A stretch of DNA of 16,475 nucleotides, from assembly GCA_002712305.1 (NCBI GenBank), contig PATE01000132.1, forward strand, positions 1-16,475, in the 5' to 3' direction. Positions 12,170-16,475 of the stretch are shown here, piece by piece (the stretch's first letter is position 1; every line of letters begins with the position of its first letter). Made by a program: the position numbers and the translations under genes. The stretch is from Gemmatimonadota bacterium. Its GTDB lineage: Bacteria; Latescibacterota; UBA2968; UBA8231. The notes under the pieces are model-generated. The model saw only the letters and a program-made list of their open reading frames with translations. It had not been told where the DNA came from and did no database searches.

Positions 12170-14131
12170 TCACACCCAGTAGATGTTGTTGTCCGTCATC
12201 CCCGTGAAATAGTCGATGACGAGCCAGAGCCCGGCGACGAAGAACTGGCCAAGAATGAGCCCGAGGAAGAAGGGACGCGCTCTGTGGAACAACGTGGGCC
12301 CCCCATATTTCAGGATGATGGTCTTGATGAGCCAGGCAAGAAAGACCGACAGGGTCAGATAGTTCGTCATCGAAATCGTGCTGACGGCGAAGCCCAGGGG
12401 GTGCATGGGCCACCAGAGGAAGTTGTGTCGCGCCAGCATGAGCAGGGCCATGATGGTTCCACCAACGCCGGTGGAGATCCACCCGGTCCAGTCGGGGCCA
12501 TCGGGATTGTTCAACTCGCCCGTGGCGTAGTTCCACGGGTAGGCCGGACCCCCGGTGGGGCCGAAGAACCAACCGTTGAGATTGATCCCGCCATAGGCAT
12601 AACTCATGTGCATGACGGCCCAGATCGACGCGGCAATGCTGACGACGATGCTCAGGCCGATCGCCCAGAACAGGGCGCGCTTGTTCCGATGCAGCTGCTC
12701 TTCGGCCAGTTTGAGACCATTGGCAGTGGAGGCCATGACGAAGGTTCGCACATCGGCTGCCCAAACATACGTAAAGCCGAGCACGACCAACGTCGACGAG
12801 TCCAGGACGCTGTTGCCCAGACTGGATGAGACAAAGTCGGAGGGGATCAGCGGCGCCCGAGCAGCGGCGATTCCGCCTTCGGCAACGATCCGTGTGATGG
12901 CGAGAAACACGACATACATGATCCCGAGGTAGATCGGCACCACCCACAGTGTCATGCCCGCCGTCCACAGCCACAAGCCGATGAAGACATTCGCCAGGAT
13001 CAGGCCGAACACGGCGAAGCGATAGGACATCATTTCGTCGCTGTCATCGACTGTGGGGTCGCCCTTGAAGGCCTTTCGAAATACGTCCGACAGGTGACTG
13101 CGTGCCGTCCACAGCCCGAACAGAACCATCACCAGGAATGCCCCCATGCCCTGATGGGCGACGATCGGTTCGGGGGGCGCGTAGTAGAGTTTTTCCGGCG
13201 ACGAGATTCCCAGCACTCCGAAGGTGCCTTCCTGGGCCCTTGCGAGAAGACTGAAGAACCAGATCGAGAAGGCGATTTCCGTATTTACCAGATAGGTGAA
13301 GCCGAGCATGGGAAAACTCAGCGCGATCTGCAGTACGGCCGTGTTGCGGAACAGAGGAATCGACGTCTGGGTGATGACGGTGGGCACGAAGTTGTAATAG
13401 TTGTGCAGCGCTTTCAGCGAGCCGATCACGAAAGGGATGGCAAACCCCACCCACATGAGCCAATTGCGAAAGAAGGGCTTCAGTGCGCGTCCGGATCCGT
13501 CATCTTCCGTCATGGCCAGCGGGACCTGTACCAGAGGGAAGGCGAGTCGTTCGCGCACGATCCACTGCTTGCGCAGCATGACCATGATGCAAGCCATAGA
13601 GAAGTAGATCGACAGAATCAGGGGAATCCACGACAACAGGGGAACGATCCACGGCAACCACGTGATGCCGACACCCCGTGGTGATCCCTCGTAGAAAAAC
13701 TTGACGGCGGTGAACTCCTGCGGCACCATCCACGACTTGATGTAGGGATGGATGAGAACGCCCCATTCGTTCTCTATCGTGGCGTAATAGTGGGCGCCAC
13801 TCATGATGGGCAGCAGGTATTCGGTGAGACCCATCGTCGGAATCGAACATGACACGATGGCCATGATATAGACGACGACAAGCTCTTCGGGTCGGAAGGC
13901 CAGCCTTGGATGGATGAGTCCAAGGCCCGTGTGAACGAGGAACACGAGGATGAAGAACACGAAAATGGCCCCCGCCGTGCTGAAGTCGAGGGCCATATAG
14001 GAGCCACGCAGCACCATGTTCCCGTAGGGAGCGCCGGTGCTGATACAGATCGCCAGAATCGTACCGGTCAGCAGGGAACGAAAGCTCACCCCCGTGCTGC
14101 GGCGCGGGCGGTCACCGTCGTCTGCGCGCAC
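12170..14131 (-). CDS. OPT-like multi-pass membrane protein (probably DUF6785 group)
   Basis: The product is about 653 residues with some 14-16 hydrophobic helices spread along its length and hydrophilic loops between. Examples are AGAIFVFFILVFLVHTGLGL near the start, TLWVVPIYLGIMYVVFLAI in the middle and FFLGLILGQFFVAGLWLVI near the end. Size, helix count and the Asn/Trp-Tyr-rich loop GGINLNGWFFGPTGG fit the OPT-superfamily-like proteins labelled DUF6784/DUF6785 in planctomycete-type genomes. OPT proteins carry oligopeptides or metal-chelates; the substrate here is unknown. The frame is open back to 14362, but that enters the divergent reductase gene. I use GTG 14131; TTG 14164 and GTG 14089 are alternatives and none has a good ribosome site. 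The family assignment is from memory of pattern, not a search. Confidence 0.65.
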   Translation of the reverse strand: MRADDGDRPRRSTGVSFRSLLTGTILAICISTGAPYGNMVLRGSYMALDFSTAGAIFVFFILVFLVHTGLGLIHPRLAFRPEELVVVYIMAIVSCSIPTMGLTEYLLPIMSGAHYYATIENEWGVLIHPYIKSWMVPQEFTAVKFFYEGSPRGVGITWLPWIVPLLSWIPLILSIYFSMACIMVMLRKQWIVRERLAFPLVQVPLAMTEDDGSGRALKPFFRNWLMWVGFAIPFVIGSLKALHNYYNFVPTVITQTSIPLFRNTAVLQIALSFPMLGFTYLVNTEIAFSIWFFSLLARAQEGTFGVLGISSPEKLYYAPPEPIVAHQGMGAFLVMVLFGLWTARSHLSDVFRKAFKGDPTVDDSDEMMSYRFAVFGLILANVFIGLWLWTAGMTLWVVPIYLGIMYVVFLAITRIVAEGGIAAARAPLIPSDFVSSSLGNSVLDSSTLVVLGFTYVWAADVRTFVMASTANGLKLAEEQLHRNKRALFWAIGLSIVVSIAASIWAVMHMSYAYGGINLNGWFFGPTGGPAYPWNYATGELNNPDGPDWTGWISTGVGGTIMALLMLARHNFLWWPMHPLGFAVSTISMTNYLTLSVFLAWLIKTIILKYGGPTLFHRARPFFLGLILGQFFVAGLWLVIDYFTGMTDNNIYWV

Positions 14132-14295: not shown

Positions 14296-15255
14296 ATGCA
14301 GCAGCGACAACTCGGCCGCAGTGGACTCCAGTGCAGTGTGATCGCCCTGGGGACCTGGGCATTCAATGCCCAGGTGTACGGACCGGTCGCGATCAGCGAG
14401 GCGACGGCGACGGTGCATCGCGCGCTCGAGGAGGGGATCACGCTCTATGACACGGCGCCGTTGTATGGCAGTCGCGAAGAGGACGGGATCTCGGAACGTA
14501 TCCTTGGAGGGGCACTGGGCGCCGATCGCGATCAGGTCCTGATCTCCACCAAGTTTGGCCGCCGGCCCACGACGGGCAATCGACCTGAGTTTGATGCAGC
14601 CCATGCCACCGCCTCCGTCGAGGCGAGTCTGCAGCGGCTGGGCACGGACCGAATCGATGTGCTGTTCTTTCACTCACCCTTTGGGCCTGATGAGATCGCA
14701 GACGACGTCTGGGGTGCTCTCGAGAAACTACGCTCTTCGGGCAAAGTGCGGGCGATTGGACATTCGATCTCGAAATTCGAGGACACGGCGTCCATGGCAC
14801 GAACCTGGGCACAGGAGGGGCGCATTGATGTGATCCAGGTGGTGCTCAGTCTACTGAACCGTGAAACGCAAGGGTTGATCGAGGAGCTTGCGGCCGATGG
14901 CGTCGGCGTGCTGGCTCGGGAATCATTGGCCAACGGTTTCCTCTCGGGTACCATGACGGCCGATACGGTGTTTCCGGAGGGAAGCCTCAACGCGCGCTAT
15001 GATCCGCAGGAGGTGACAGCCCGTGTCGAACAGGTCGCTCGACTGGGGTTCCTCGTGGATGGTCAGATTGAGAGCATGCCGCAGGCGGCGATGCGCTGGG
15101 TGCTGGATCAGGAGGGGGTGTCTTCGGTGTTGACTGGCGCCCGAACGCCAGAGCAAATCAGCGACTGCGCCAGGGCGGCGGTGGCGTCACCCTATTCGGC
15201 AGATGATCTTGCACGGGCACGGGAGCTTCACCAACAGGACTTCTCCGCCGCCTGA
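14296..15255 (+). CDS. Aldo/keto reductase
   Basis: The 319-residue product is a complete (beta/alpha)8 NADPH-dependent reductase. The N-terminus QLGRSGLQCSVIALGTW is typical of the family. The catalytic tetrad is visible: Asp52 and Tyr57 (LYDTAPLYG), Lys86 (ISTKFG) and His126 (FFHSPFG). The C-terminal cofactor motif is present as VSSVLTGARTPEQI. It would interconvert a sugar or other carbonyl compound and its alcohol in the cytoplasm. AGAGGG at 14281-14286 lies 9 bases before ATG 14296, which fixes the start. It is divergent from the OPT-like membrane-protein gene and convergent, with a 20-base gap, on the repeat-protein gene. The family is secure and the substrate unknown. Confidence 0.95.
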   Translation: MQQRQLGRSGLQCSVIALGTWAFNAQVYGPVAISEATATVHRALEEGITLYDTAPLYGSREEDGISERILGGALGADRDQVLISTKFGRRPTTGNRPEFDAAHATASVEASLQRLGTDRIDVLFFHSPFGPDEIADDVWGALEKLRSSGKVRAIGHSISKFEDTASMARTWAQEGRIDVIQVVLSLLNRETQGLIEELAADGVGVLARESLANGFLSGTMTADTVFPEGSLNARYDPQEVTARVEQVARLGFLVDGQIESMPQAAMRWVLDQEGVSSVLTGARTPEQISDCARAAVASPYSADDLARARELHQQDFSAA

Positions 15256-15275: not shown

Positions 15276-16475
15276 CTACCAGCTGGGGCACATACCCATC
15301 TGTTGGTGTCGCTGCTGACGCCCCACGTCGTTGATCCGGATTCCTTTGTCACCATAGTTCACACACGCGAAATTCTGTCGGCCTACGTTTGAATCGGAAA
15401 GATCGACGGTCTTCTCGAGGATCATCTCTTTGGTGACGACATTGATGACGATCGCGTCATAGAGGATCTCGATGAGACGGCGTCGTTGGATTCGACGTTC
15501 GTTCGTCTGATTCTGCTGCGCATATTGCTTGACGACCGTCTTCTGCTCCATGTAGTTGCGATTGAGGCTGCTGGGCAGTGCCTCGCAGGCCACGATCGAC
15601 CAATCGAGCCCGGGGGTCTCACCTACGAAGAAGGCCTCGGTTCGATACTTGTTGATCAGCCCACCCACGTCGTCAAAAAGCTGCGGGTAGTTGCGCACCA
15701 GGTTGAGCATATTCGCCTGCACAACGGCGCCCCCCTTGAAAAACCGCGGCAACCGCGGAATCAGCGCATACGGATGTTCCATGGCCTTCTCGTTGGCCAC
15801 CAACGTGCGTATGTTCGGGTCTCGTGTCTTCTTCTGCCAGCTAAGTTCGAGCTTCTCACGATCGTTGGGCAAGATCTGCATGCCGAGGTATTGTTCCAGA
15901 TCCTCCAGGGAAACTTGGTGGGTCATCAGGTCGAAGTTGAGTTCCTCGTAGGCCTCTTCCTCTTCTTTCGACGCTTGTGGCTGCTCTTTCTTTCGCATCC
16001 GGGTCAGACGCTCTTCCTCGGGCACGTCAACACCTGGTCGGCGACCTACTACGGATTCGTTCTCGGGCTCACCGTCCGCGGTAAACCCAGGCCCATCCTT
16101 CTTCTTTTTCCGATTGTCTTCGCCTTCGGTCGGTGTAAAGCCGGGTGTGTCCTTGGTTTCGTGACCCTCGGTCGGTGTAAAGCCGGGGGTTTCTTCGACG
16201 TCGTGACCTTTGGTCGGGGTGAAGCCGGGTGTGTCCTCGGTTTCGTGACCCTTGGTGGGTGTGAAACCTGGGGTGTCCTCGGTCTCGTGACCCTCTGTGG
16301 GGGTGAAACCGGGCGTGTCCTCGGCCTCGTGTCCGACCGTGGGCTCGAATCCGGGCGTGTCCTCGGCTTCGTGTCCGACCGTGGGTTCGAATCCGGGTGT
16401 CTCTTCGACCTCATGCCCCTTGGTGGGCTCGAATCCGGGCGTGTCCTCGGCTTCGTGTCCGACCGTGGGTTCGAA
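15276..16475 (-). CDS. Unrecognised protein with N-terminal 14-residue tandem repeats (5' end outside window)
   Basis: The frame ending at the TAG 15276-15278 has no stop up to the window edge, giving at least 399 residues. GTG 16025 is the first in-frame start after the repeats, but the coherent repeat peptide upstream shows that the gene continues off the edge. In order it has: eight perfect-length repeats of the form F-[ET]-P-T-[VKE]-G-H-[ED]-x-[EK]-[DE]-T-P-G (16140-16475), a decayed ninth with KKKK, an acidic linker (near 16023-16082), a Glu/Lys-rich stretch (EEEEAYEELNF), and a roughly 215-residue globular domain. That domain includes a basic helix ERRIQRRRLIEILYDAIV and ends in GMCPSW. 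I do not recognise the globular domain. The repeats are acidic and Pro/Gly-rich, as in flexible stalks or surface spacers; that role is inference. The signal peptide, if any, is outside the window. Confidence 0.8.
   Translation of the reverse strand, partial: FEPTVGHEAEDTPGFEPTKGHEVEETPGFEPTVGHEAEDTPGFEPTVGHEAEDTPGFTPTEGHETEDTPGFTPTKGHETEDTPGFTPTKGHDVEETPGFTPTEGHETKDTPGFTPTEGEDNRKKKKDGPGFTADGEPENESVVGRRPGVDVPEEERLTRMRKKEQPQASKEEEEAYEELNFDLMTHQVSLEDLEQYLGMQILPNDREKLELSWQKKTRDPNIRTLVANEKAMEHPYALIPRLPRFFKGGAVVQANMLNLVRNYPQLFDDVGGLINKYRTEAFFVGETPGLDWSIVACEALPSSLNRNYMEQKTVVKQYAQQNQTNERRIQRRRLIEILYDAIVINVVTKEMILEKTVDLSDSNVGRQNFACVNYGDKGIRINDVGRQQRHQQMGMCPSW
16140..16475 (-). repeat. Eight in-frame 42-bp tandem repeats
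   Basis: The 336 bases divide exactly into eight 42-bp units (unit borders 16140, 16182, 16224, 16266, 16308, 16350, 16392, 16434), and the array probably continues past the window edge. Unit 16434-16475 and unit 16350-16391 are identical in all 42 bases although another unit lies between them, and unit 16308-16349 differs from them at three sites. The four units nearest the N-terminus encode F-E-P-T; the four nearer the globular domain encode F-T-P-T. This pattern points to recent duplication or gene conversion within an older array. Confidence 0.95.

Follow-up and report, generated by a model that had tools for sequence, protein, structure and literature searches.

An acidic 14-residue repeat array in one member of a paralogous gene pair from a family of uncultured bacteria

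The window, i.e. the whole stretch of 16,475 nt analysed here, is contig C132 of a 4.77-Mb genome in 146 contigs (G000). At its far end, on the minus strand, lies the C-terminal part of a gene here called B (15276..16475), which comprises 399 codons plus the stop codon and runs off the contig; starting at the window edge, the frame stays open as far as a TAG at 15276–15278, and a complete ortholog is available in the sister genome G001. The first 112 residues consist of eight exact 14-residue units of the form (E/D)TPGF-x-PT-x-GH-(E/D)-x-(E/K) (16140..16475, minus strand). They are followed by a ninth, degenerate unit, FTPTEGEDNRKKKK, leading into a Lys run (16098..16139, minus strand), which is the positional counterpart of a single copy located beside basic sequence in distant orthologs. 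A charged low-complexity spacer (15969..16097, minus strand) connects the repeats to a conserved C-terminal domain of approximately 230 aa (15279..15968, minus strand); the internal GTG at 16025 falls within this spacer. Convergent with B is an aldo/keto reductase gene (14296..15252, plus strand), next to a gene for a DUF6785/DUF6784 membrane protein (12173..14131, minus strand). The latter is commonly found downstream of B and, in genus g4, is directly adjacent to it on the same strand. DUF6785/DUF6784 proteins are greatly expanded in this bacterial family, the genomes of which contain between 4 and about 50 matches each, and with so many paralogs co-occurrence is uninformative for a functional link with B.

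The 14-residue repeat array is real. TRF reports a 42-bp array at 16126–16457 with 7.9 copies and 80% matches, and the identity of the B protein with itself at an offset of 14 is 0.77, compared with at most 0.27 in shuffled sequences at any tested offset (n = 5000). This bears out the eight exact units of the original prediction. The core Pro-Thr-x-Gly-His, described there as invariant, is indeed present in 8/8 exact units of the window and holds among the units of this genome, but not across the orthologs, in which TPGF, mostly preceded by an acid and with flanking acids, is the constant part.

The start of B was found on another contig of the same genome, C39, which likewise ends within the 14-residue repeat. 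Read on the minus strand, C132 begins with 78 nt that exactly match the final 78 nt of C39, from which we infer a join of the two contigs within gene B. From C39 come the ATG start, an acidic linker and an N-terminal domain that spans about 75 residues; the N-terminus of the protein reads MSDTERIEQLRHTIQEEEKRFLMDRY. The minimal join yields a protein of at least 607 aa with at least 11 units, the first of which begins with APGF; both numbers are lower bounds, as further copies may be collapsed. In G001 the whole locus lies on one contig in the order DUF6785 gene, reductase, B (935 aa, uninterrupted), A, SH3-like gene, NurA, HAS-barrel gene, HerA. Thus, the expectation that the frame continues past 16475 was correct: directly beyond this position neither a stop codon nor a frameshift was found, and C39 carries the frame up to an ATG 234 codons before its end. 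It had also been suggested that annotation from a start codon would truncate the protein. The internal GTG at 16025 does exist, but the gene starts on another contig, and what looked like a truncated start is a contig edge that falls inside a repeat not bridged by the assembler. The assembly of G007 is broken inside the B array as well, between contigs C116 and C104. No signal peptide was found at the start on C39. A hydrophobic N-terminus and a membrane span are also absent from B, the highest mean hydropathy over 19 residues being 1.39, within the C-terminal domain. Therefore, B is probably a cytoplasmic protein, and a secreted or surface-exposed repeat stalk was rejected for lack of a signal peptide or membrane anchor. 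Comparison of G000 with G001 gave a dN/dS of 0.06 for the C-terminal and 0.065 for the N-terminal domain of B, with synonymous sites close to saturation; judged from these alignments, both terminal domains are under purifying selection.

The C-terminal domain had been described as globular and without a placeable family, which agrees with our searches: the domain and the whole protein gave only scattered matches below threshold in Pfam, NCBIfam, PHROGs and PADLOC, and nothing credible among PDB sequences, so that a known family covering all of B was not found above cut-off. By sequence, four candidates can be discarded. The PGF-CTERM sorting domain (TIGR04126) reached 12.4 bits (E 0.098) where at least 24.5 bits are needed; moreover, the match is internal (residues 65–73 of the fragment) instead of C-terminal and lacks the membrane helix. 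The Spt5 C-terminal repeat (PF12815) scored 21.7 bits against the G001 ortholog, below the cut-off of 25.4, and no stretch was significant. The heptad tail of RPB1 (YSPTSPS) differs from the 14-residue unit in length and sequence, and Pfam gave no PopZ match for full-length orthologs of B (935 and 714 aa). AlphaFold2 modelling of the C-terminal domain from alignments of three and two sequences gave poor models, with a mean pLDDT of 42 and 35, respectively. A resemblance to uncharacterised proteins of other phyla with a GW-L-...-S-SKTW-EQ pattern may exist, but this pattern returned no matches when used as a query.

Comparison of the orthologs shows how variable the array is. Genus g4 has a single copy, ETPGFAAPExxxER (ETQGF in G011). 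TPGF occurs in one clear copy in G013, three times in G006, six times in G009 and eighteen times in G001, where the units have the form ETPGFEGGVGHEVE and lack PT; in G003 the motif is missing. One of the unit scans fixed T and F in its search pattern, and the sequences obtained without this gate are the fairer evidence for TPGF. When the DNA pattern (D/E)TPGF....GH was searched in 25 whole genomes of the family, matches were almost confined to gene B and the reversed control gave 0; one match in G013 (contig C185) lies in an unrelated frame and was treated as chance. Changes between units in the arrays of genera g1 and g5 are mostly synonymous, with a dN/dS of 0.135 in the window, 0.09 on C39, 0.24 in G001 and 0.27 in G009; a weaker value of 0.54 was obtained for G007, the units of which are of mixed types. 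In a few genera, to which the expansion is confined, TPGF was amplified to 6–18 copies, with the peptide kept by purifying selection between units. Recent duplication may account for some of this similarity among units.

The arrays are embedded in a linker whose net charge amounts to −66 over 295 aa in the minimal protein of G000 and to −156 over 623 aa in G001. Because of this strongly acidic composition and a negative FoldIndex the linker is predicted to be disordered. Outside the repeats, Leu-Phe-acid motifs (GLFDDE, DLFAEDE) occur in it, and B linkers also have a conserved AGVLFxxDIYSG box, which was not observed in the portion of G000 that is assembled. Since the array length varies and G003 is without the TPGF motif, the core function cannot depend on the repeats.

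Upstream of B, on C39, lies gene A (331 aa), the end of which is separated from the start of B by 11 bp. Its C-terminal half is a diverged paralog of the C-terminal domain of B: profile–profile alignment of A with B gave a probability of 98.4% (E 8.7e-15) over 195 columns. Homology between the N-terminal domains was not detected in a gappy and hence weak alignment. Wherever the locus lies unbroken on a contig, A and B are neighbours. In a midpoint-rooted tree of 28 C-terminal domains, all A sequences separate first from all B sequences (support 100/100), followed by the splits of A from A2 and of B from B2 (91/90 for A2, 97/99 for B2), A2 and B2 being the members of a second pair. From the order of these splits it follows that an old tandem duplication gave rise to A and B and that both genes were subsequently duplicated together. 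This pairwise duplication is the strongest sign that A and B would function together. The linkers of B2 contain unrelated repeats of a like character, with Phe and acids (FSGDDE, DFGRDE). A conserved protein of about 940 aa regularly precedes A2–B2 (L036, 4089–6905); it has no Pfam match and looks glycosidase-like by eye.

Genes of the A or B type were found in 16/25 genomes of the GTDB family to which the window belongs; 'Candidatus Handelsmanbacteria' is a named relative (locus L025). B was found in 0/361 genomes outside the family, 39 of the same phylum included, and no relatives of A or B were found in collections of phages, plasmids and viruses. Judged from this sample, the pair appears restricted to one family of uncultured bacteria. 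In G015 the flanking SH3-like and DUF6785 genes adjoin each other about 380 bp apart, A–B being cleanly absent. Decay has occurred repeatedly: in G000 all that is left of the second pair, between its usual flanking genes, is some 112 codons of B2, interrupted by a stop (L045, about 14567–15086; G000:C25:26655–26990). Remnants also exist in G002, G012 and G014. In the last of these, a deletion between the two genes has apparently joined the beginning of A2 in frame to the end of B2 (L048, 8967–9584).

A compact cluster of NurA, a stand-alone HAS-barrel protein and HerA is located divergently from A–B (L003, 3089–6822, minus strand), the HAS barrel thus occurring twice, within HerA and as a separate neighbour. 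In genus g4 a STAS-plus-ATPase-like regulatory protein, as read from its sequence, and a MarR/STAS-like protein are encoded beside A–B; such genes are also present at the site of G018 that lacks A–B (loci L137, 9224–10168, and L025, 6296–7228).

We suggest a cytoplasmic assembly of two proteins, A and B, with B as its long subunit, which would serve as a disordered, acidic and multivalent tether; we give this proposal about an even chance. A and B would associate via their homologous C-terminal domains, while the linker of B, judged by its composition, would form a disordered arm. Each TPGF or LF motif may dock weakly onto the surface of a partner, the motif copy number setting the valency and reach of the arm, and B could in this way tether or concentrate a client near the A–B core, possibly as a condensate.

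Other explanations have to be weighed against this one. Spacer, multivalent binding surface and cation-binding stalk had all been named as possible roles of the array, and the first two remain the best readings. A passive entropic spacer, expanded by replication slippage and relevant only for its length and negative charge, would explain why the copy number ranges from 0 in G003 to 18 in G001, why other acidic low-complexity sequence fills the B linker in other genera and why the B2 linkers use unrelated repeats. Against it, a lone copy of the TPGF core persists across genera, where it would not be needed if charge alone mattered, and synonymous changes between units by far outnumber amino-acid changes (dN/dS 0.09–0.27); we consider a purely passive role rather unlikely. 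For the stalk, in which divalent cations would be bound by His and acidic residues, either to buffer metals or to make the stalk rigid, speaks the G-H-(E/D) that most units of the G000, G007 and G009 arrays keep at fixed spacing. But His is missing from the single-copy units (APExxxER in g4) and is replaced in some units of G001 (GRD, GQD, GED) and G006 (GER), a single His in every 14 residues makes for a sparse set of ligands, and neither a signal peptide or membrane span nor a metal-related neighbour was found. A role in cation binding is therefore very improbable.

An accessory function in DNA repair, together with the divergent NurA, HAS-barrel and HerA genes, is suggested by their position flanking A–B in genera g1, g4, g5 and g6, as well as by the conserved Arg pairs of the B domain and the neutral to basic character of its C-terminal part (pI 7.7–9.8). 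Yet NurA is present in 22/25 genomes of the family, among them single-contig genomes without A–B, G003 possesses A–B without NurA, and the A2–B2 pair sits among unrelated genes (URO-D, ferredoxin oxidoreductase), which makes such a function quite improbable. The proposal of B as a multivalent tether can be extended to a family-restricted scaffold, in which a paralogous core assembly with an acidic arm of tunable motif number would recruit a client into a condensate-like body; in this extended form we regard it as speculative and unlikely.

Within the libraries searched, the A–B pair and its repeat expansion were not found described; a scaffold with a repeat-bearing disordered arm is of a known kind. 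PopZ of Caulobacter, a cytoplasmic protein that acts as an acidic, disordered hub of condensates, combines a helical part with an expanded disordered region in which attractive and repulsive forces are balanced (PMC9512792). B may be likened to it as a bacterial, probably cytoplasmic protein with an acidic, putatively disordered region, of which for B the acidic composition is what was seen, but differs by its large C-terminal domain, its paralogous partner gene and its regular tandem motifs, and has no sequence match to PopZ. The linkers of algal pyrenoids have a repeat structure and bind one client in a multivalent manner. The Rubisco linkers EPYC1 and Chlorella CsLinker are disordered and poorly conserved between species, with their role being kept (PMC11570498). 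As disordered multivalent linkers they would be functional analogues of B, not homologs; they are eukaryotic with a known client, whereas B is one of a paralogous pair. The heptad tail of RPB1 and the C-terminal repeats of Spt5 carry tandem Thr-Pro-containing repeats on a disordered tail that docks many factors. Their likeness to B is weak, below threshold and a matter of compositional low complexity, not of homology; they are eukaryotic, differ in unit length and sequence and, in the case of RPB1, contain few acids.

For annotation, the locus is a reminder that arrays of this kind are places where assemblies break, leaving two truncated unknown proteins on record instead of one. The family offers a natural series of 0, 1, 3, 6, at least 11 and 18 motif copies, leading from a single-copy linear motif to what may be a multivalent array, and an unmatched domain together with a paralogous gene pair is added to the unexplored proteins of Handelsmanbacteria-like bacteria.
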